In this document: one piece after another, positions 7,303 through 60,635 of the stretch
Layout of the letters: each line of letters begins with the position of its first letter
Position numbering within the stretch: position 1 is the stretch's first letter
Source: Oligella ureolytica DSM 18253
GTDB lineage: Bacteria; Pseudomonadota; Gammaproteobacteria; Burkholderiales; Burkholderiaceae_B
NCBI RefSeq assembly: GCF_000373745.1
Contig: NZ_KB892282.1
Span: 1 to 64,000, forward strand
Reading direction: 5' to 3'
DNA: 64,000 nt
Notes under the pieces: generated by a model
The model's database searches: none
The model's input: the letters and a program-made list of their open reading frames with translations, nothing else
Told to the model about the DNA's origin: nothing
Program-made: the position numbers and the translations under genes

Positions 7303-8223
7303 ATGACAAGCAAATTCTTCCATAGTGATCACCTAGTTTGGTTAGTTAATCACGATCAGGCACATGACTTTTTAGAGGGGCGATACTTTTTTAGACAGCT
7401 TAACAGTGGGCTGAGCATTCATGGTGGTACGCTATGCCCCAGTCAATCCCTCAAATCAGGTCGCATCATTAATCGCTACGTCAATCTCATCGTCCTACTG
7501 GAAGGCAGCCTACGCTTTGCCATTAATGAGCAGCGCTACGATATTACAGCCGCCTCTCATGGCAAGCTGATTTTAATCACACCTGACAACAACAGTTTAT
7601 TTACCCGCTACTTAGTCAGTGGCGAACAAAGTACTAAAATCGCTATCAAGGGGATAGACCGTTGGATCGATGATGACGATCAACACCACTACCCGGGCCT
7701 CTATCAACAGGCCGTACGCATTCGTGAACTGGATGCTCAACAGCGTCACTTAAGCCTAAACTTTTTACAACAAACCATGAGCCCCTCCCCCAGTTCGTTA
7801 GTACTTGACTACTCCGCTCTCAAGCTGCTCGATCAGTTATGGGAAAATTTTGCCAGTGATTGCGCCCAACACGAAGCCATCGCTCGAATTAAGCCTCAGC
7901 ACGAGTTTATCAGGCAGCTCACCAACGCATATCAACCCCGCTTAAGCGCACAGGAATTGGCTGATTATCTACACCTTAGCGAACGCACACTGCAACGTCG
8001 TATTAAAAGCCATTTTAATTGCAGTCTTCGTGAGTGGATGCATCAGCAAAAAATGATCTTGGCACTTAAGCTCCTCGTGCAAAATCAACTCAGTATTAGT
8101 GAGGTGTCTTATGAGTGCGGCTATCAGCATGTGTCCAACTTCGGTCAAGCCTTTAAGAAATTCTTTGACTCCACGCCAGCCGAAATACAGCGTGCAAACA
8201 CATCAAAAAGCGCTACCAATTAA
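7303..8223 (+). CDS. AraC-family regulator, PchR/AlcR-like
   Basis: This is a 306-residue protein with a long N-terminal sensing region and a C-terminal double helix-turn-helix AraC domain from about residue 210 (LSAQELADYLHLSERTLQRR, ending with the FGQAFKKFF signature). It is divergently transcribed from the siderophore receptor, sharing the Fur-box region. By analogy with PchR and AlcR it would bind the siderophore internally and activate the receptor and esterase genes. The ligand is unknown. Confidence 0.85.
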   Translation: MTSKFFHSDHLVWLVNHDQAHDFLEGRYFFRQLNSGLSIHGGTLCPSQSLKSGRIINRYVNLIVLLEGSLRFAINEQRYDITAASHGKLILITPDNNSLFTRYLVSGEQSTKIAIKGIDRWIDDDDQHHYPGLYQQAVRIRELDAQQRHLSLNFLQQTMSPSPSSLVLDYSALKLLDQLWENFASDCAQHEAIARIKPQHEFIRQLTNAYQPRLSAQELADYLHLSERTLQRRIKSHFNCSLREWMHQQKMILALKLLVQNQLSISEVSYECGYQHVSNFGQAFKKFFDSTPAEIQRANTSKSATN

Positions 8224-8301
8224 AGAGTAAGTTTTTACTTAGCTTGGCATCACACAACAGCGGCAACACCATTTTTTGATTCATGAAACTGCAACAATGG
8301 C

Positions 8302-8319
8302 CTGTTAACATTTTGTCAC
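8302..8319 (+). promoter_or_regulatory. possible Pho box upstream of phnD
   Basis: CTGTTAACATTTTGTCAC matches about 13 of 18 positions of the PhoB-box consensus, with direct-repeat halves CTGTTA and TTGTCA. A -10-like TAATAT or TTTAAT lies just downstream. Phosphate-starvation control would suit a phosphonate importer. The match is moderate. Confidence 0.4.
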
Positions 8320-8360
8320 TAAGTAATATCTCTTTAATTACGATCTGATAAGGATTTAAC

Positions 8361-9311
8361 ATGTTTAAATTGAAAAGCATTGCGTTAGCTGCTTTATTAG
8401 CCGCACTCCCCTTGAGCAGCCAAGCTTTAGATACCCGCTTTACTGACGCTGATGGCGATTTAATTGCAGATGCGCCCACCGATCCTAAAGACTGGCTTGA
8501 CCCATCAACCCTCGTCTTTTCCTATACCCCGGTTGAAGACCCTGCTGTTTATGCCGAGGTGTGGAAAGAATTTATTGATCATTTAGCCAAGGAAACCGGT
8601 AAAAAGGTACAGTTCTTCCCGGTACAAAGTAATGCTGCTCAATTAGAAACCATGCGCGCAGGTCGTTTACACGTTGCCGGTTTTAACACGGGTTCTAACC
8701 CATTAGCAGTCAACTGCGCAGGTTTCGTACCATTTGCCATGATGGCTTCCAATGATGATCGCTACGGCTACGAGATGGAAATCCTTACTTACCCCGGTAG
8801 CGGGATTGAAAAAGTAGAAGACATTAAGGGCAAGAAACTTGCTTTTACCTCTGAGACATCTAACTCAGGCTACAAAGCCCCTTCTGCTTTATTAAAGCAA
8901 GAATTTAAAATGGAAGCAGGTACAGATTTTGAACCTGTATTTAGCGGTAAGCACGACAACTCAATTTTAGGTGTTGCCAATAAAGATTACCCGGCCGCTG
9001 CCATTGCCAACTCTGTTTTGTCTCGTATGCTTGAGCGCGATGTGGTAAAGAGCGAGCAATTAGTATCAATTTACAAATCTCAGTCTTTCCCTACCACCGG
9101 CTATGGTTACGTTTATAACTTAAAGCCCGAGTTAGCTGAAAAGGTTAAAGAAGCCTTCTTTAACTTCAATTGGGAAGGTACCGGTTTAGCTAAAGAGTTC
9201 AACCCGGTTGAACCTCCTCAAGAAAAATTCATGCCTATTTCTTATAAAGAGCACTGGCAAGTTGTCCGTGATATCGATGCGGCAATGAATGTTAGTTACG
9301 AGTGTAACTAA
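8361..9311 (+). CDS. phnD: phosphonate/phosphite ABC transporter, periplasmic binding protein
   Basis: This 316-residue protein has a clear signal peptide (cleavage after SSQA) and the PhnD/PtxB/AioX fold, visible in VFSYTPVEDPAVYAEVW, the MRAGRLHVAGFNTG loop and the SETSNSGYKAPSALL region. It captures phosphonate, phosphite or a related oxyanion and delivers it to PhnCE. An AAGGA ribosome site lies ahead of the ATG. It begins a phnDCE1E2 operon. No C-P lyase or phosphonatase genes are in the window, so the real ligand is open. Confidence 0.88.
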   Translation: MFKLKSIALAALLAALPLSSQALDTRFTDADGDLIADAPTDPKDWLDPSTLVFSYTPVEDPAVYAEVWKEFIDHLAKETGKKVQFFPVQSNAAQLETMRAGRLHVAGFNTGSNPLAVNCAGFVPFAMMASNDDRYGYEMEILTYPGSGIEKVEDIKGKKLAFTSETSNSGYKAPSALLKQEFKMEAGTDFEPVFSGKHDNSILGVANKDYPAAAIANSVLSRMLERDVVKSEQLVSIYKSQSFPTTGYGYVYNLKPELAEKVKEAFFNFNWEGTGLAKEFNPVEPPQEKFMPISYKEHWQVVRDIDAAMNVSYECN

Positions 9312-10203: not shown

Positions 10204-11028
10204 ATGCAAAACCCCGCTACTTTATTAAAGCCGCCTGCTTATCCTACCCAATGGAAAAAGCCACCCTTTATCAGCAACCCTATCCTGCGCTACACCTTAA
10301 TCATCGGCGCTATCGTTTACTTAATATTAGCGATTGGCTCATTGGATATTAACTGGCTACGCCTTAGTCAAGGATGGGAAAGAGCTTGGGTGTTTGTTAA
10401 AGGCTTTTTAACTCCTGACTTTACCACGCGTGGCACTGATATTAGGCAAGGCATGGTAGAGAGCTTAACCATGGCCTTGACCTCAACGGCTGCCGGCATT
10501 GTCATTTCAATTCCTATTGCCGTCGGTGCTGCAAAAAATTTAAGTCCTCATTGGATCTATTATATTTGTCGTGCCATTATCGCTCTCTCCAGAACACTTA
10601 ATGAAATTATTGTGGCTATTTTCATGGTTGCTTTATTTGGTTTTGGCGCCTTTGCAGGCTTCCTAACCCTCGCCTTTGCCACGATTGGTTTTTTAGCGAA
10701 ATTATTAGCCGAGGATATTGAAGAGATTCAAGCCTCTCAACTCGACGCCTTAAAAGCAACCGGTGCCGGATTCCTACAAACACTCGACTTTGCGGTTTTA
10801 AGTCAATGTCTACCACGTTTAGTCGGGTTATCACTTTATCGTTTAGACATTAATTTCCGTGAGTCTGCCGTTATCGGCATTATCGGAGCCGGTGGTATTG
10901 GTGGCACTCTAAGCACAGCGATGGACCGCTATGAATACAGTTCAGCCGGTGCGGTCTTAATTTTAATTATCGCTATCGTGATGATTGCTGAATACGCCTC
11001 TAGTTGGGTGCGCCGGAAAATGCTATGA
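10204..11028 (+). CDS. phnE: phosphonate ABC transporter permease, first copy
   Basis: This 274-residue inner-membrane permease has about six predicted membrane helices and the EAA-type loop (AEDIEEIQASQLDALKATGAG). It carries the PhnE signature INFRESAVIGIIGAGGIGG near the C terminus and ends with a membrane helix and a basic tail (SSWVRRKML). Its stop overlaps the next permease start (ATGA), so the two are translationally coupled. A 174-base piece of its 3' end is copied at 13507-13680 as part of a chimera. Confidence 0.9.
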   Translation: MQNPATLLKPPAYPTQWKKPPFISNPILRYTLIIGAIVYLILAIGSLDINWLRLSQGWERAWVFVKGFLTPDFTTRGTDIRQGMVESLTMALTSTAAGIVISIPIAVGAAKNLSPHWIYYICRAIIALSRTLNEIIVAIFMVALFGFGAFAGFLTLAFATIGFLAKLLAEDIEEIQASQLDALKATGAGFLQTLDFAVLSQCLPRLVGLSLYRLDINFRESAVIGIIGAGGIGGTLSTAMDRYEYSSAGAVLILIIAIVMIAEYASSWVRRKML

Positions 11029-11759
11029 GTAATGTCATTAATCTAAATTCACTGGCAACGGCCAAATGGAATAAACGCACGCCCATACAAAACGCAGCGG
11101 TCTTTATGATCTGGTTCATCAGTATCGCCTTTGTCGTCTGGTGCTTTCAAGTCATGACCAAAGACACCATATGGGCTTTTATCTACGACGCTCCACGTCA
11201 AATGCAGGACATTGGCGCCCGTATGTTTCCTCCAAACTGGACATCCATCAACGAGCTTTGGTCACCGTTGTGGGAAACACTCAATATTGCGACCTTAGGC
11301 ACACTATTAGGAACAGCCATGGCGGTACCTGTGGCCTTTTTGGCTGCGCGAAATACAACGCCAAGCAGCACCTTATTACGCCCTATCGCTCTATTTATCA
11401 TTGTTTCTTCACGCTCTATTAATTCCTTAATTTGGGCCTTATTATTAGTGTCTATCCTAGGTCCCGGCGTTTTAGCAGGCATTATAGCTATTGCACTCAG
11501 ATCGATTGGCTTCATCGGTAAGCTGCTCTACGAATCAATTGAAGAAATTAGTCCCACAGCAGTAGAAGCGATTGCAGCGACCGGGGCCTGTCGCCCTCAA
11601 GTGATTGCTTGGGGAATATTCCCGCAAGTAGCACCGACCTTAGCCGGTATTACGGTATTTCGTTGGGATATTAATATTCGCGAATCAACGGTACTCGGCT
11701 TAGTGGGTGCCGGCGGTTTGGGTTTAAAACTAAATGCCGCTTTAAACACGCTGGCTTAG
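11025..11759 (+). pseudogene. phnE: phosphonate ABC permease, second copy, with premature amber stop
   Basis: As read, this is a 244-residue permease starting at the ATG that overlaps the phnE1 stop. It has the expected helices, the EAA loop and the INIRESTVLGLVGAGGLGL signature. It stops at TAG (11757-11759). The frame then continues cleanly for another 29 codons to TAA at 11847-11849, coding for VSMILIVIFATVVISEW and a basic tail, exactly the missing last membrane helix. The simplest reading is TGG (Trp) changed to TAG. It may be inactive, partly read through, or the result of a sequencing error. Confidence 0.75.
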
Positions 11760-11861
11760 CCTAAGGTCAGCATGATTTTAATCGTGATTTTTGCAACTGT
11801 CGTTATCAGCGAGTGGATCACCATGAAGGTTAGACAAAAGCTGATTTAATTTCCACAGACA

Positions 11862-11889
11862 AATAAAGGGTCTGATTAGGCCCTTTATT
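11862..11889 (+). terminator. terminator after phnDCE operon
   Basis: A hairpin with arms AATAAAGGG/CCCTTTATT lies just after the original phnE2 stop at 11849. It lacks a long T run, so strength is uncertain. Confidence 0.6.
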
Positions 11890-11892
11890 CAA

Positions 11893-12040
11893 TTAACGCT
11901 CTAAACCTGCGATGCGCCTAAAACACCTAATCCTCACCCCTGCCGCTACCTTAGGTAAAAGCTCAGGTGATAGCCAGCACGGCTTATTCAAACTAGTAAT
12001 CAAGCGCAGCTCATCGGAATTAATACCCAAAATAGACTGC
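11893..12040 (-). pseudogene. 3' remnant of a flavin-dependent oxidoreductase gene
   Basis: On the minus strand about 47 codons remain in frame and end in FRRIAGLER and a stop, matching the C terminus of the intact flavin oxidase at 14867-16174 (FRRLAGLER). By my alignment roughly 63% of residues are identical. The rest of the gene is missing. This is an old, degraded paralogue fragment lying antisense after the phn operon. The following bases, 12041-12310, hold only AT-rich sequence and the promoter region of the broken ArsR gene. Confidence 0.75.
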
Positions 12041-12310
12041 GTCATTACGAGCTAAAACAGCCAGTTACACTAGCAAGAATTGAGTTTAAATATCTAATTA
12101 TTAATAACAACTAAGCAGATTTTTTATCGCGTCATAATTTAGAAAAGTGTTATATATTTACAAACGTTACAAACTGAATCTCATTAGAAACGACTAAAAA
12201 CCTTTAACTAGTTGCATGGACAGTAAAATTTAATATTAAGACGAATCTATTGCCATTTAGCTATTGATTTTTAAATTAGAATGTGCTAAATTAGGTCATT
12301 CTCAGATGTT

Positions 12311-12613
12311 ATGAATATGCAAACTTTATCATTAGAAACGCTGACCGAAGAGGCCCCCGACTTTATCAAAACCTTAGGTAACCAGCATCGACTATTACTA
12401 TTATGTTTATTAGTCGAAAAGGGTGAGCTTAACGTTGGTCAAATTTACCAACACTCAAGCCTAAGTTAATCAGCCTTATTTCAGCATATTGCAATTATGC
12501 GCGAAGAGGGTCTGATCAGCTATCGCCGTGAGGCTCAAACCCTTTACTATCGCATTGCTCATGATAGAGTTTATAAAATCGTTTCCAATCTAAAAGAGAT
12601 CTTCTGTCCGTAA
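12311..12613 (+). pseudogene. broken ArsR-family (BigR/YgaV-like) regulator gene
   Basis: The frame starts MNMQTLSLETL and follows the intact regulator at 19114-19428 closely, but codon 53 is TAA (12467-12469) where the paralogue has CAA for glutamine in SSLSQSALSQH. Reading resumes in the same frame and ends IFCP at 12613. Both putative persulfide-sensing cysteines (Cys32 and Cys99) are still encoded. It sits just upstream of the rhodanese gene it probably once controlled. One base change explains the break. Confidence 0.85.
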
Positions 12614-12649
12614 ACTCGGGTTCTTAAATTTTTATTAGAGACCATTTTC

Positions 12650-13165
12650 ATGACTTTACAAATCATTTCTCCAGATAAAGCTGCCGACTTAGTTAAAGAC
12701 GGCGCAACCTTAGTTGATATTCGCTCAGCTGGTGAATATGGCCATCGCCATATTCCTGGTTCTAGCAACCAAACAGTAGACCAAGTGTCTACTAGCTCAT
12801 TACCAACTGATGGCGTGGTTATTTTCCTGTGTCAATCAGGCATGCGCACTCGCACCAATGCTAATAAATTAGCTGCGGCCGCTAAAAACTGTAAAGAGTA
12901 CTATATCTTAGAGGGCGGTATCGACTCTTGGCAAAAACAAGGCTTAGCTGTTGAGGTTGCTCCTAACGCACCTTTAGAGTTACAACGTCAAGTACAAATC
13001 GCTGTTGGCATCATGGTTATCCTAGGTGTTGTACTTGGTACTTGGGTTAACCCTGCTTGGTATATTTTAAGTGCTTTTGTTGGTTCTGGCTTACTTATGG
13101 CTGGCGTGACTGGCTTCTGTGGTTTAGCACGCCTACTTATGTTAGCGCCGTGGAATCGAGTCTAA
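12650..13165 (+). CDS. membrane-anchored rhodanese with DUF2892 domain, YgaP-like
   Basis: This is a 171-residue protein. Residues 1-105 form a rhodanese domain with the active-site loop FLCQSGMRTR (catalytic Cys) and the LVDIRSAGEY signature. Residues 115-171 form a two-helix DUF2892 membrane region. The architecture matches E. coli YgaP, a membrane sulfurtransferase. Linkage to a BigR/YgaV-type ArsR gene upstream and a second DUF2892 protein downstream points to handling of sulfide or persulfide. With the local regulator broken, it may be constitutive or controlled by the intact ArsR paralogue 6.5 kb away. Confidence 0.85.
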   Translation: MTLQIISPDKAADLVKDGATLVDIRSAGEYGHRHIPGSSNQTVDQVSTSSLPTDGVVIFLCQSGMRTRTNANKLAAAAKNCKEYYILEGGIDSWQKQGLAVEVAPNAPLELQRQVQIAVGIMVILGVVLGTWVNPAWYILSAFVGSGLLMAGVTGFCGLARLLMLAPWNRV

Positions 13166-13262
13166 GCAATAATTAATTAAGTTAATCACAAGTGTTGACA
13201 CAATAGTCTGTACTTGTATTGAGTTTGACAAAGTTGTTCTCCAATCACTTAAAGGATATGTT

Positions 13263-13445
13263 ATGAACAAAAACATTGGTAGCGTAGATCGTTTGATCCG
13301 TATTATTATTGGTATCGTTTTAATTGCTTTAACCATCAACGGCAACATCGGTGTATGGGGTTGGATTGGTATTATTCCATTAGCAACAGCATTAATTAAC
13401 TTCTGCCCACTTTACCGTATTCTTGGTTTTTCAAGCCGTAAGTAA
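13263..13445 (+). CDS. DUF2892 (YgaP-type transmembrane) small membrane protein
   Basis: This 60-residue protein has the DUF2892 opening NIGSVDRLIRIIIG and two hydrophobic helices, ending CPLYRILGFSSRK. AAAGGA precedes the ATG. The upstream 97 bases contain a TTGACA (13195-13200), but the -10 is weak. It probably works with the neighbouring rhodanese in sulfur-species handling. A strong terminator follows. Confidence 0.8.
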   Translation: MNKNIGSVDRLIRIIIGIVLIALTINGNIGVWGWIGIIPLATALINFCPLYRILGFSSRK

Positions 13446-13470
13446 TTACTAGCTAAAACCACTTTTCTCG

Positions 13471-13505
13471 ACCCGAATCTAATTTTATTTAGATTCGGGT
13501 TTTTG
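13471..13505 (+). terminator. rho-independent terminator after DUF2892 gene
   Basis: A hairpin with arms ACCCGAATCTAA/TTTAGATTCGGGT is followed by TTTTTG. The chimeric phnE fragment begins directly after it. Confidence 0.85.
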
Positions 13506-13506
13506 T

Positions 13507-13743
13507 TGTCTACCACGTTTAGTCGGTTTATCACTTTATCGTTTAGACATTAATTTCCGTGAGTCTGCCGTTATCGGCATCATCGGAGCCGGTGGTATTG
13601 GTGGCACCCTAAGCACAGCGATGGACCGCTATGAATACAGTTCAGCCGGTGCGGTCTTAATTTTAATTATCGCTATCGTGATTTTTGCAACTGTCGTTAT
13701 CAGCGAGTGGATCACCATGAAGGTTAGACAAAAGCTGCTCTAA
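13507..13743 (+). pseudogene. chimeric phnE1/phnE2 3' fragment
   Basis: Seventy-eight codons in one open frame without a start. Bases 13507-13680 match phnE1 10807-10980 with three differences. At the shared sequence ATCGTGAT it switches to the tail of phnE2, matching 11781-11843 without differences, and ends in TAA. The product would run from the INFRESAVIGIIGAGG signature into the FATVVISEW helix that phnE2 itself has lost. It is a recent recombination remnant, not a working gene. Bases 13744-13901 after it hold the cold-shock gene leader. Confidence 0.85.
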
Positions 13744-55282: not shown

Positions 55283-56737
55283 ATGAAATGGGAAATTGTT
55301 ATCGGTCTAGAAACGCATGTACAGCTCTCGACCGCTTCTAAAATATTTTCCGGCAGCAGTACGGCTGTCGGCGCAGAACCGAATACGCATACATGCGCTA
55401 CTGACTTAGCATTACCCGGCACCTTACCGGTAATGAATCGCAACGCAGTACACAAGGCAATCCAATTCGGTTTAGCAATCAACGCACACGTCGCTGAATT
55501 CTCTCAGTTTGAACGTAAGCATTATTTCTATCCGGACTTACCGAAAAACTACCAGACATCTCAACTTGAGCACCCGATTGTCAGCGGTGGTCAGATTAGT
55601 TTTATGGTCGGAGACGAGCTAAAAACGCTCAATCTCACACGTGCTCACCTTGAGGAAGACGCCGGTAAGTCTTTACACGACAACTACCACTTTGAAGATG
55701 GCGGTTCAGCGACCGGTATTGACTTAAACCGTACCGGCACCCCACTACTCGAGGTTGTGACTGAGCCTGAGCTACATTCGGCTGCTGAGGCAGTAGCCTA
55801 TGCCCGCGCCTTACATAGCTTAGTGGTATGGCTTGGCGTTTGTGATGGTAACTTGCAAGAAGGTAACTTCCGCTGTGATGCTAACGTTTCTATTCGTCCT
55901 GCCGGCCAAAAGGAATTAGGCACACGCACGGAGATCAAAAACGTGAACTCTTTCCGTTTCTTAGAGCGTGCCATTCTTTATGAAGTTGAACGTCAAATCG
56001 AGGTACTGGAAGATGGCGGTACCATTGTCCAAGAAACCCGTCTTTATGATGACGTCAATGACGAAACTCGCAGTATGCGCACCAAAGAGGACGCTCAGGA
56101 CTACCGCTACTTCCCTTGCCCTGATTTACCTCCATTGATCGTCAGCAAAGAGTGGATTGAAGAAGTACGCCAATCAATGCCTGAACTACCTGATGCCTGC
56201 CGCGCACGTTATGAGTCTCAGCTTGGTTTATCCGCTTATGACGCAGCACAAATGACGGTCAATCGTGAAACTGCTGATTACTTTGAAGCTGTCTTGGCTC
56301 TTTCCAAAGCCGACAATGCAAAAGTTATCGCCAACTGGATTATGGGTGACGTCAACGCTACCCTCAATAGCTCCGGTCTGGAAATCACTGACATTCCGGT
56401 CACACCGGCAGGCTTAGCAAAGTTAGTTGAGCGAATCACTGACGGCACAATTTCTCACAAAGCCGCACGCGACGTTTTCCAAGCGCTTTGGGCCGGAAAA
56501 AACGAGGCAGATGTGGATAAAATCATTGAAGCCAAAGGCCTTAAGCAAATCAGTGACACGGGTGCTCTCGAAGCCTTAGTTGATTCGGTCATGGCTGCCA
56601 ATGCCGACATCGTCGAAGAGTTCCGCTCAGGCAAAGAAAAAGCCTTTAACTCATTAGTCGGTAGAGTAATGCGCGAAGCCAAAGGCAAGGCAAATCCTGC
56701 TCAAGTCAACGAGATTTTGAAAAAGAAATTAAGTTAA
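55283..56737 (+). CDS. gatB: Asp-tRNA(Asn)/Glu-tRNA(Gln) amidotransferase subunit B
   Basis: This 484-residue subunit binds the tRNA and activates its aminoacyl group. Signatures are [11 protein letters not shown], the [15 protein letters not shown] block, [17 protein letters not shown] and a C-terminal YqeY-type tail. It ends the gatCAB operon. The terminator behind it is part of the duplicated 82-base repeat. Confidence 0.97.
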
Positions 56738-56750
56738 TTTGACTGCTAAA

Positions 56751-56832
56751 GCTTTTCAAGCATAAATACAAAAACGGGGTTCTGAGTGATTGTCACCAGA
56801 ACCCCGTTTTATCGTTTTATATGGCTGTGAGA
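56751..56832. repeat. 82-bp direct repeat, left copy, flanking the R-M cassette
   Basis: This stretch is identical, base for base in my comparison, to 59786-59867. It includes a bidirectional terminator hairpin (56771-56810). The left copy follows gatB; the right copy precedes pyrE. Together they frame the methyltransferase and endonuclease genes. Confidence 0.95.
56771..56810. terminator. bidirectional terminator, left copy (gatB / methyltransferase)
   Basis: Arms AAAACGGGGTTCTG/CAGAACCCCGTTTT form a strong hairpin with A and T flanks between two convergent genes. Confidence 0.9.
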
Positions 56833-56846
56833 AAAATGGCTTTTTG

Positions 56847-58220
56847 TTAAGCAGATTTAGCCATAGTATTCTGTTTTTTCACCTGCATAATCCTCGGCTT
56901 TATAAATTTGGCAATAGCGGAAAACATTGGTGATACCACTGAGTTTCCAAATTGTTTGTAGGCTTGGGTATCTGATACCGGAATTTTAAATTCACTGCCT
57001 TGAGGAGAACTTAAGCCCATTAAACGGGAACATTCAAGCGGCGTTAAACGACGAGGACGTTTTGCCATATTTGCTTCGTTTTCAAAATCTTTACTAAAGT
57101 CCCATCCGCGATCAATCAATATTTCAGAGCCATCTTTGTGGTATCTTGCAGATAAGGTACGTGCACGCTCATCTGGACCAACCAATCCGTAGCCGAACCC
57201 GTTTCCTTTGGCTCTGTGCTTTTCTGCATAATTGAATAAATATTTCCAAAGGTTGGGGGTCAATATGTATTTATCATCAACCTTATCCGCATCCTCTAAG
57301 ATATCGCCTAGCACAGGAGATGTGGTTGGTTTAGGCAGGTCTTTGAGACTAAATCCATTGTGGATATTGAGGTCTTTACGGAATCCTATCAATACTATAC
57401 GTTCACGATTTTGTGGCACCCAGTGTGAGCCGTTAATAATCTTCGGATCATTAGGCCCTGTATGTTCAGCATCTGCCACTTCATACCCAAGCTCAGTAAG
57501 TGTCTCAATAATTACTTTGAATGTTTTTCCTCGGTCATGACTCTTCAGGTTTTTAACATTTTCTAAAACAAAAGCAATTGGTTTTTTAGCTGCAATAATT
57601 CTAGCCACATCAAAAAACAAAGTGCCCTGAGTTGAGCATTCAAACCCGTGTTTAGCTCCTAGAGAATTTTTCTTTGACACGCCGGCTAGTGAGAAAGGTT
57701 GACATGGAAAACCAGCAAGCAGTATGTCATGATTAGGTACGTTGATATCTATGTGTTTATATGCTTCTTCTTCAGAAATGCTTGAATCCATACTCAAAGT
57801 GATATCGCGTATATCTTCATTGAAGGTGTGAAAAGCGTGATCGCAAGCAAAATTAGCCTTGTATGTTCTGCGAGCAAACTTATCCCACTCACTACTAAAA
57901 ACACAGTAGCCATTTTGCTCTTCAAAACCTTTTCTAATACCGCCAATTCCAGCAAATAAATCGATAAAGGTAAAGTCACAATCTTCTAAACTCACTTTAG
58001 GTTTGGGAAGTAGTTCTTCTAAGTAGTCATACTCCAACTTGCTTAGTTTAGGCGCAGCTTTACCCTTAAGCCATCGGTTGATAGTCTCTCGTGTCCAATT
58101 ACTGTTTGGTTGCTTATTAAGGTAATCTGCTAGGAATTGTTGATCATAGATAGATGATAGCTCTTTAATCAACTCATAATCTGTTGGGTATAGATCTAGA
58201 CCTAACTGAGGTTCATTCAT
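56847..58220 (-). CDS. DNA (cytosine-5) methyltransferase, Dcm/M.EcoRII-like
   Basis: This 457-residue type II methyltransferase has SAM motif [11 protein letters not shown] (85-94), catalytic [11 protein letters not shown] (Cys173), [10 protein letters not shown] (motif VI), [11 protein letters not shown] (VIII) and [10 protein letters not shown] (X). The match to E. coli Dcm, including the VSKKNSLG and [12 protein letters not shown] stretches, is close, so CCWGG is the likely target. The N-terminal 75 residues resemble Dcm's helix-turn-helix region. The ATG at 58220 is preferred, with GGAG eight bases ahead. The endonuclease is divergent. Confidence 0.9.
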
Positions 58221-58301
58221 ACATTTTACTCCATCCACTGGGTCAATTTAGTGACATCTTATCACGAAACTGACACAATCATTCTTAATTAAATGACTAT
58301 T

Positions 58302-58316
58302 TACTACTTTGTAGTA
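58302..58316. promoter_or_regulatory. palindrome in the R-M divergent promoter region
   Basis: TACTACTTTGTAGTA (arms of six bases, three-base centre) lies between the two divergent R-M genes. It could be an operator for the methyltransferase acting as its own repressor, as its N-terminal helix-turn-helix region would allow. No controller gene is present. Confidence 0.35.
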
Positions 58317-58424
58317 TTCAGTTTATTGGAGAGGGATTTGAATAGGCAATAATAGGATATGAATGTCCTTGCCATGGGTAAATAATTCTTACCTAATTTG
58401 AAAAATCACTTATGAGGGATAAAG

Positions 58425-59744
58425 TTGAGTATTTTAAATACGCTAGTAACACACATGCAGGCTCATGGTGCTAAGCGATTTTTAATTAAAAAATTAGCCA
58501 ATAATGATAACTCAAAACAACAAATTTATTTAGGTAGCGATTTTGAAATTATCCGAATAATTCCATCAGGTGACATGTATGCAGATGGCGTAAGCAAAAA
58601 AGGTGCAATTTTTAAGGCACCAGTAGTTTTTTTTTGGATTGACTTAGAAGGCGAAGTCGATCGTGCTCCTAATACACAAATCATTTTTTATCCTAAATAT
58701 CCTGAAACTCGTTTGTCTGGTTTTATTCAAGGTTCTAATAAAAATAAAAATATTGCACCTAGACAATTGATGCTACCTCCTACTCCAGAACAAAGAAATG
58801 AACGAGGGGATACTAATCGCTATTTGATCCTAGGAGTCAATGAGACAACGGTTTGGGCGCATTGCACAGCATGGACTGGTGAGCTGCATAGTGAAATAAC
58901 GTTACTTCTTGAAAAGGAAGCAATTATACCGGTCACATCGGTATTTTTTGAGTTTTCCAAAACAGATGAAACAAGCGAAGAGAAACTACTATATAAACTC
59001 AAAGAGATTTATTTAAGAGGCCCAATTAATTCATGTCGCATGAATCCTCAAGGCGAAATTATTCCATATACAGCACAAAATGGCGCAGGATACACACTTG
59101 AAGCTCAGTTCGGCATTACGCCAAATGGTTTTAGTGATCCGGACTTCATGGATTGGGAATTAAAATCACATTCACATGGTGTGGTCACTTTGATGACACC
59201 AGAACCAAACATCGGTCTCTATTTGGCGAACTTAAAGGATTTTATGGATGCTTATGCTACTAAGAAACGTCCGGAACGCTTAGACTTTGCAAGTCGCCAC
59301 TTGATAGATCGCCGCAATGAGAAATCCACCTTAACTATGTACGTTGAAGGCTTTGAACCTATCAAAAAAGAGATATTAGACCCTCAGGGAGGCTTGATGT
59401 TACGTGACGATCAAGGAAAATTGGCAGCAGGTTGGTCTTTTGAAAAGTTAATTGATCACTGGAAGAAAAAACATAATAACACCTGCTTTGTTAGTACAAC
59501 AAAAATATCAACTACGCCACCACAGTATAGCTACGGGCCCGAAGTTACTTTAGCTAAAGGCACTGATTTAAAGATGTTCATCAGCGCATTATTCTTGAGT
59601 ACCATCTATTATGATCCCGGCGTTAATATGAAGCTAATAAATGACAAATGGCGCTCCAAGAAACGCAATCAATTTAGAGTAAATTGGCGCAATATTGAAA
59701 CCGTGTATAGCGAAGTTAAACAGGTTGATTTATCTTCACTGTAA
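58425..59744 (+). CDS. type II restriction endonuclease, MvaI/BcnI-like catalytic domain
   Basis: This is a 439-residue protein. From about residue 218 it resembles the MvaI/BcnI nuclease family: GAGYTLEAQFGI, then the active-site pattern PDFMDWELK (Asp240, Glu245, Lys247) and a late FRVNW segment. MvaI cuts CCWGG, consistent with the Dcm-like partner. The first 200 residues form an N-terminal region not found in the compact MvaI and BcnI enzymes; I do not recognise it. TTG start behind GAGGGA. AT-rich compared with neighbours. Confidence 0.75.
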   Translation: MSILNTLVTHMQAHGAKRFLIKKLANNDNSKQQIYLGSDFEIIRIIPSGDMYADGVSKKGAIFKAPVVFFWIDLEGEVDRAPNTQIIFYPKYPETRLSGFIQGSNKNKNIAPRQLMLPPTPEQRNERGDTNRYLILGVNETTVWAHCTAWTGELHSEITLLLEKEAIIPVTSVFFEFSKTDETSEEKLLYKLKEIYLRGPINSCRMNPQGEIIPYTAQNGAGYTLEAQFGITPNGFSDPDFMDWELKSHSHGVVTLMTPEPNIGLYLANLKDFMDAYATKKRPERLDFASRHLIDRRNEKSTLTMYVEGFEPIKKEILDPQGGLMLRDDQGKLAAGWSFEKLIDHWKKKHNNTCFVSTTKISTTPPQYSYGPEVTLAKGTDLKMFISALFLSTIYYDPGVNMKLINDKWRSKKRNQFRVNWRNIETVYSEVKQVDLSSL

Positions 59745-59785
59745 ATAAATAATTATTACTCTAGTACGCTAGTTAAACTATTGAG

Positions 59786-59867
59786 GCTTTTCAAGCATAA
59801 ATACAAAAACGGGGTTCTGAGTGATTGTCACCAGAACCCCGTTTTATCGTTTTATATGGCTGTGAGA
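59786..59867. repeat. 82-bp direct repeat, right copy, flanking the R-M cassette
   Basis: Identical to 56751-56832. It contains the terminator hairpin at 59806-59845, which serves the endonuclease gene and the convergent pyrE. Confidence 0.95.
59806..59845. terminator. bidirectional terminator, right copy (endonuclease / pyrE)
   Basis: Same hairpin as 56771-56810, here between the endonuclease gene and pyrE. Without the cassette a single copy would separate gatB and pyrE. Confidence 0.9.
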
Positions 59868-59873
59868 CACTCA

Positions 59874-60551
59874 CTAAGCGCCATATTTTTCGCGATAAGC
59901 CGCTACTGACGCCTCATGTTGAGTGAACTGCCCATCCTCTTCTAGTAACGTCATGATATCTTTTAGCGAGGCGATTGAAATGACCGGCAAACCATACTTT
60001 TGCTCAACCTCTTGAACCGCAGACTTTTCAGCAATCTCTTCGTGGTTACCGCCCTTTTCCATGCGATCTAATGCAATTAATACCGCGGCAGGTTTGGCTC
60101 CCTGTGCCTCAATGATATCGACTGAGTGACGCACAGAAGTACCGGCCGTAATCACATCATCAATAATCACAACCTTACCCTCTAAAGGCGCCCCTACTAA
60201 CACGCCACCCTCACCGTGGTCTTTTGCTTCCTTGCGGTCAAAGGCATAAGGGATATCACGACCCTCTAAATCCGGATGATTTGATAAAGCAATGGCAGTG
60301 GCAGCAGCTAAACTAATGCCCTTATAAGCCGGTCCGAAAAGCATATCGAACTCAACACCGGAGCTAACCAATGCATCTGCATAAAATTTAGCCAAGACAC
60401 CTAGGGACTTGCCACTATTGAATAAACCTGCATTAAAAAAATACGGACTCACACGGCCAGATTTAGTTTCAAACTGCCCAAATCGTAAAACCCCTTGCTC
60501 TAGGGAGAAACGGACAAAGTCACGACGTTGTTGCTGAGTATTATCATCCAT
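59874..60551 (-). CDS. pyrE: orotate phosphoribosyltransferase
   Basis: This 225-residue pyrimidine biosynthesis enzyme carries the PRPP motif [29 protein letters not shown] and [16 protein letters not shown]-type segments. The [12 protein letters not shown] start is chosen because the family begins there; a longer frame adds 13 residues. It is convergent with the R-M endonuclease gene and was probably next to gatB before the insertion. Confidence 0.95.
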
Positions 60552-60635
60552 AAATAGAAAATCACTTGGTCTTATTCGAAAGAAAACCATTATACAAGTC
60601 TTTACAATTTGACACTTAGCAATCCGAGAAAAAAA

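Follow-up and report, generated by a model that had tools for sequence, protein, structure and literature searches.

The window, that is, the whole stretch of 64,000 nucleotides of Oligella ureolytica DSM 18253 DNA that was analysed, carries a two-gene restriction-modification (R-M) cassette between two convergent genes, which we take from their proteins to be gatB and pyrE. The left neighbour, gatB (55283..56737, + strand), is intact, and its stop codon lies 13 bp before the first of two identical 82-bp repeats (56751..56832). This repeat copy is followed by the gene for a Dcm-like cytosine-C5 methyltransferase of 463 aa (M, 56847..58238, - strand), by a spacer between two divergent gene starts (58239..58424, 31% GC) that presumably holds both promoters, and by the gene for an endonuclease of the MvaI/BcnI family of 439 aa (R, 58425..59744, + strand). 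Then comes the second repeat copy (59786..59867), and beyond it the right neighbour pyrE (59874..60590, - strand), which is also intact and convergent with gatB. The cassette between the repeats measures 2,953 bp and contains M and R only; the other frames of at least 60 aa within it overlap one or the other of these genes. Its GC content is 37.8% versus 44.2% for the window. No recombinase (transposase or integrase) was recognised in the cassette, whose frames are just M and R, and a comparison of the last 150 nt of either end revealed no exact inverted repeat longer than 6 nt.

M matched PF00145 (1.9e-77) and exceeded the cut-off of the curated Dcm subfamily by little (NF007772, 712.6 bits against 710). 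Its closest solved relative was 3me5 (6.3e-171), described as a 'cytosine-specific methyltransferase'. R reached 138.8 bits with PF15515 (cut-off 25). A phmmer search of the PDB with R itself gave no match; a profile made from 20 R relatives matched R.MvaI (2oa9, 1.7e-7) and, weakly, R.BcnI (0.00094). The PDF-x2-WE-x-K stretch of R aligned with PDFHDIEIK of R.MvaI, and the residues D240, E245 and K247, aligned to R.MvaI, were invariant across the 20 sequences; we take this D-x4-E-x-K pattern to be the catalytic motif of the MvaI/BcnI endonucleases. R (439 aa) differs from R.MvaI (249 aa) in having an additional N-terminal part of ~190 aa. As the profile of R matches both R.MvaI and R.BcnI, and with the specificities that we presume for these two enzymes, a CCWGG or CCNGG-type target is likely. 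CCWGG was found 23 times in the window versus 51 expected. Over 261 kb of the genome's own sequence the observed/expected ratio was 0.70, and in the congeners G006, G005, G007 and G001 it was 0.74, 0.69, 0.81 and 0.87, respectively; avoidance of CCWGG thus gave no clear sign of activity in either direction, the own ratio being not clearly below those of the relatives (0.69-0.87). Among the aligned CCWGG sites of G006, 44 of 73 were CCSGG in the own genome, and outgroups polarised the CCSGG/CCWGG switches to the G006 lineage by 16 versus 4. The same genome has a second, truncated C5 methyltransferase gene (195 aa; locus L173, G000:C8, ~135-1766), which by eye lies beside an istB-like frame and a transposase-like fragment and looks like a relic broken by an insertion sequence.

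Two identical 82-base repeats framing exactly M and R between gatB and pyrE had been described in an earlier note on this DNA, and the coordinates proved exact: the two copies form a maximal exact direct repeat (82/82) with a spacing of 3035. When the own genome (2,668,297 bases) was searched with a 103-base query containing the repeat, only these two copies were found, together with reverse-strand self-matches of the hairpin described below at the same positions. The 82-bp pair is the longest among four exact direct-repeat pairs of at least 30 bp in the window. The other three, of 53, 74 and 63 bp, lie at 10.8-13.7 kb (10828/13528, 10909/13609 and 11781/13675, spanning 10828-13737); there a copy of the 3' end of a permease frame (10204-11028) lies 2.7 kb farther downstream, where no frame reaches 120 aa. 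The permease resembles phnE, and these repeats are perhaps the relic of a duplicated phosphonate-type transporter.

Each copy of the 82-bp repeat contains a hairpin (56771..56810 and 59806..59845) with perfect 14-bp arms and 12 nt between the arms. Its folding was far stronger than that of shuffled sequence on both strands (z -6.2 and z -5.9). A simple terminator scan of the window did not list it, presumably because the loops allowed in that scan were limited to 3-8 nt. From the folding we infer that the hairpin is a transcription terminator in both copies. Duplication of a terminator between convergent genes accounts for the layout gatB> T <M R> T <pyrE, in which the first hairpin, terminator-like in both directions, faces the ends of gatB and M and the second those of R and pyrE. 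The claim that a bidirectional terminator keeps both neighbours and both new genes insulated therefore stands as regards the arrangement, with a hairpin facing each gene end; termination, and with it insulation, is what the predicted structure would provide. Such insulation is likely a consequence of the layout and not evidence of selection.

We then compared the locus within the genus, using a sample of eight genomes including the own one, one per species. The 3' end of gatB was matched in all eight and pyrE in seven (the own genome among them). In the congener G006 the site is contiguous and empty: gatB, whose protein is 94% identical, and pyrE are separated by 94 bp that hold one hairpin and no cassette. 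In the congener G003 the ends of the gatB contig and the pyrE contig overlap by 8 bases just beyond one hairpin, again with no cassette, and gatB and pyrE appear to be joined across these two contig ends; the pyrE frame of G003 reads with one internal stop. After removal of the cassette and one repeat, the window aligned across the spacer with both G006 and G003. G006 retains the gatB-side portion of the repeat (CTTTTCAAG), and G006 and G003 both share the flank on the pyrE side (ACTAAGC). These three matches indicate that the repeat is host target sequence. The prediction that taking out the cassette and one repeat would restore gatB, one terminator and a convergent pyrE thus agrees with G006 directly and with G003 across two contigs, and the empty gatB-terminator-pyrE site that was to be sought in relatives exists in these sister species, contiguously in the former and at two contig ends in the latter. 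The comparison of empty and occupied sites is one across species (85,024 aligned bases, 77.7% identical). R itself was found in one of the eight genomes. No PF00145 genes were found in G003 and G006, which are drafts (87% and 84% complete), so that absence elsewhere in these two genomes is not certain.

The remaining five congeners say less about this site. G005 has a 485-bp gatB-pyrE spacer of other sequence; in G002 and G007, gatB and pyrE are on separate contigs, and gatB is followed by other sequence over ~0.6 and 2.4 kb, respectively; in G004 the contig stops at gatB and pyrE was not found; and in G001 the two genes are on separate contigs, gatB lying deep within one of 704 kb. Related spacer frames of 180-190 aa occur near gatB in G007 and near pyrE in G002 (loci L155, L153 and L024 represent G005, G007 and G002). 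So the gatB-pyrE spacer varies in more than one manner within the genus.

Relatives of R are sparse in the order: 5 of 399 genomes, including the own one, encode them, and the other four are 31-38% identical. In contigs of GTDB species, 301 stretches encode an R relative, of which the best 80 were analysed. Among these 80, the closest were from Aliidiomarina (64%), Idiomarina (60 and 61%) and a gammaproteobacterial metagenome-assembled genome (65% over 354 residues). The M proteins of the Idiomarinaceae relatives are 74-76% identical and are encoded in the same divergent M-R layout. With these identities and the GC content of the cassette, its horizontal acquisition is well supported, the nearest relatives found being in Idiomarinaceae and other gammaproteobacteria. 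Plasmids gave matches to R in 17 of 72,556 records, all below 60% identity; R had no match in phage records, and seven viral contigs encode distant relatives (33-38%). A search of E. coli genomes with the R gene of locus L032 gave no match. The MvaI/BcnI-type cassettes of Idiomarinaceae (L027, L028 and L029; R 60-64%, M 74-76%) resemble that of the window in that M and R are divergent and R is convergent with its neighbour. They differ from it in their position at ssrA and in that a repeat containing a terminator is present only in L028 (34 bp), in a genus with more copies of that terminator.

Can the duplication of a terminator be found at other R-M loci? The earlier note had suggested that terminators are a selected landing-site property and a general route for mobile defence cassettes, and had proposed a search for other cassettes flanked by duplicated terminators. 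We collected 87 loci with R relatives (80 genomic and 7 viral), 67 of which include 1 kb or more of flank on either side of the unit; at L033 and L067 the search found no M, and R alone formed the unit. Exact repeats of at least 16 nt within 1 kb were present at two of the 87 loci (L028 and L078); random placement gave them in 19 of 5,527 cases, and just two loci account for all 19. The 20-bp repeat at L078 (Polaromonas) was rejected as a terminator case: it is dispersed, with 40 matches scored among 280 candidates across its genome. Relaxing the limits to 14 nt and 2 kb gave repeats at four loci (L028, L058, L078 and L109), and we attribute those of L058 (14 nt) and L109 (16 nt) to chance. 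The second collection comprised 63 methyltransferase loci (60 from listed places, mostly higher-scoring with several skipped, and 3 from the genus), and three of them were bracketed by exact repeats of at least 22 nt, versus 23 of 1,944 random placements. None of these three repeats contains a hairpin (the longest stem in the repeats shown was 4), and none was accepted as a terminator case. The repeat at L214 is GC-rich. That at L180 contains, by eye, the 3' end of the methyltransferase gene itself together with the end of a tRNA-Ser gene; here (7532-8988) a C5 methyltransferase gene adjoins tRNA-Ser, and a copy of its own 3' end with the tRNA edge lies upstream, which would fit the loss of a previous copy from this position. 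At L225 (7854-11139), a methyltransferase gene and, by eye, an adjacent ATPase-like gene lie inside an exact 28-bp repeat whose copies are 3,258 bp apart, with no tRNA; this is a candidate target duplication of another kind. The search for flanking duplicated terminators therefore produced only L028 (at ssrA, Idiomarina) among the 87 R-relative loci and none among the 63 methyltransferase loci, and the suggestion of a selected or general route found no support. These counts weigh weakly against generality, as old insertions may have lost their repeats. Titles and abstract openings from a literature search contained nothing that we judged on point for duplicated terminators or convergent landing sites.

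The single positive locus belongs to a group of three, L027, L028 and L029, in which some of the nearest R-M cassettes adjoin ssrA with R convergent to it. In L028 (I. loihiensis SN11) a 33/34 repeat holding the ssrA terminator lies on either side of the cassette; L027 and L029 have no such terminator repeat. BLAST searches showed that the ssrA terminator with an edge of ssrA recurs away from ssrA in Idiomarina, and we read these recurring terminators as island ends. For this reason L028 was not accepted as independent confirmation of terminator targeting and is read as an effect of the ssrA site; no integrase was traced. A related arrangement exists in the Idiomarina genome G411 (L147, 4865-6524), where two copies of the ssrA terminator, the distal one carrying the last 14 nt of ssrA, enclose a segment of 1.6 kb that contains two 167-aa open stretches. 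By eye no integrase was recognised inside this segment, which is possibly a minimal island.

Taken together, we consider it probable that a complete type II R-M cassette was inserted between the convergent gatB and pyrE with an 82-bp target duplication that includes a terminator-like hairpin. The earlier proposal of an R-M insertion with a long target duplication and no transposase is supported by the exactness of the repeat, by the empty site seen in a congener and by the lack of a recognised recombinase. Some R-M systems are described, in the relevant passage of one paper, as inserting with target duplications that are long and variable, "in the order of 100 bp" (PMC3874152); the text and a figure legend of another relate an insertion of this kind in H. 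pylori (PMC1643837), and a third mentions a further R-M cluster with a flanking direct repeat (PMC4978471). The citing passages credit long-target-duplication insertion to Nobusato et al. 2000 and Furuta et al. 2010 (cited in PMC3874152, PMC3031569 and PMC1643837). As related in these citing papers, the described cases share with the window a complete R-M unit, no transposase, empty relatives and a target repeat on the order of 100 bp; a possible difference lies in the target duplicated in the window, a terminator-like hairpin between two convergent genes. On the best reading the mode of insertion is of an already known kind for R-M systems, the duplicated target in this case lying on a terminator-like hairpin. 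The M-R cassette would have arrived horizontally and inserted between gatB and pyrE, and the duplication would have been made in the act of insertion, when the cassette ends were joined to target ends broken ~80 bp apart, either on two sister chromosomes or in a long staggered break that was then filled in. Termination of transcription at the duplicated hairpin would leave all four genes unharmed by the insertion, and the cassette could be lost through recombination between its flanking repeats. The identity of the two copies gives no date for the event because gene conversion can keep repeats alike.

Could a recombinase acting in trans have integrated the cassette, using all or part of the terminator for attachment and leaving the 82-bp repeats as attL and attR? 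The ssrA loci speak for this, as three of the nearest relatives adjoin ssrA, the L028 cassette lies within its terminator repeat, and the paired terminators of G411 are island-like. However, the window contains no tRNA or tmRNA gene whose 3' end the repeat could hold, the 82 bp share nothing longer than 8 nt with the ssrA-side stretches of L027, L028 and L029, the cassette has no integrase, and two of the three ssrA-linked cassettes are without a terminator repeat; we regard such integration as unlikely. Alternatively, the cassette may have come from a carrier of the same species by homologous recombination, or as a circle with one repeat, in which case the duplication would predate the strain. 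This is compatible with all sequence facts, any long flanking homology being sufficient, but nothing speaks specifically for it, it merely shifts the first event elsewhere, and no second carrier was found in the eight genus genomes (one per species), so we give it slim odds. That foreign or contaminating DNA was joined to gatB-pyrE through a repeated terminator during assembly is hardly credible: the genome is a draft (98 contigs, 1.73% contamination), but both junctions lie within one 65.7-kb contig, the repeat occurs nowhere else in the genome, and 82 bp is shorter than usual sequencing reads.

Returning to insertion with a target duplication, the break may have been favoured by the hairpin. 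The centre of the duplication is offset from the hairpin dyad by no more than 1 bp (flanks of 20 bp on the left and 22 bp on the right). The chance of such centring, which was spotted post hoc, is ~7%, since 3 of the 43 placements of an 82-bp stretch around a 40-bp hairpin are equally central. This is the sole hint that the hairpin itself set the break points. We think it doubtful that the hairpin guided the insertion. If it did, an extruded cruciform, a stalled fork or a transcription bubble at the hairpin would be nicked on the two strands at comparable distances from the dyad, producing a long staggered break; the cassette would be joined in and the gaps filled, and a duplication centred on the terminator dyad would follow. 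Convergent terminators would then be a break-prone and harmless class of landing site for defence cassettes. Should hairpin-centred duplications recur, the mechanism of R-M insertion would become testable by plasmid assays. The locus offers a clean case of an R-M cassette entering without a recombinase of its own and leaving a long duplication, the empty site being available in a sister species.
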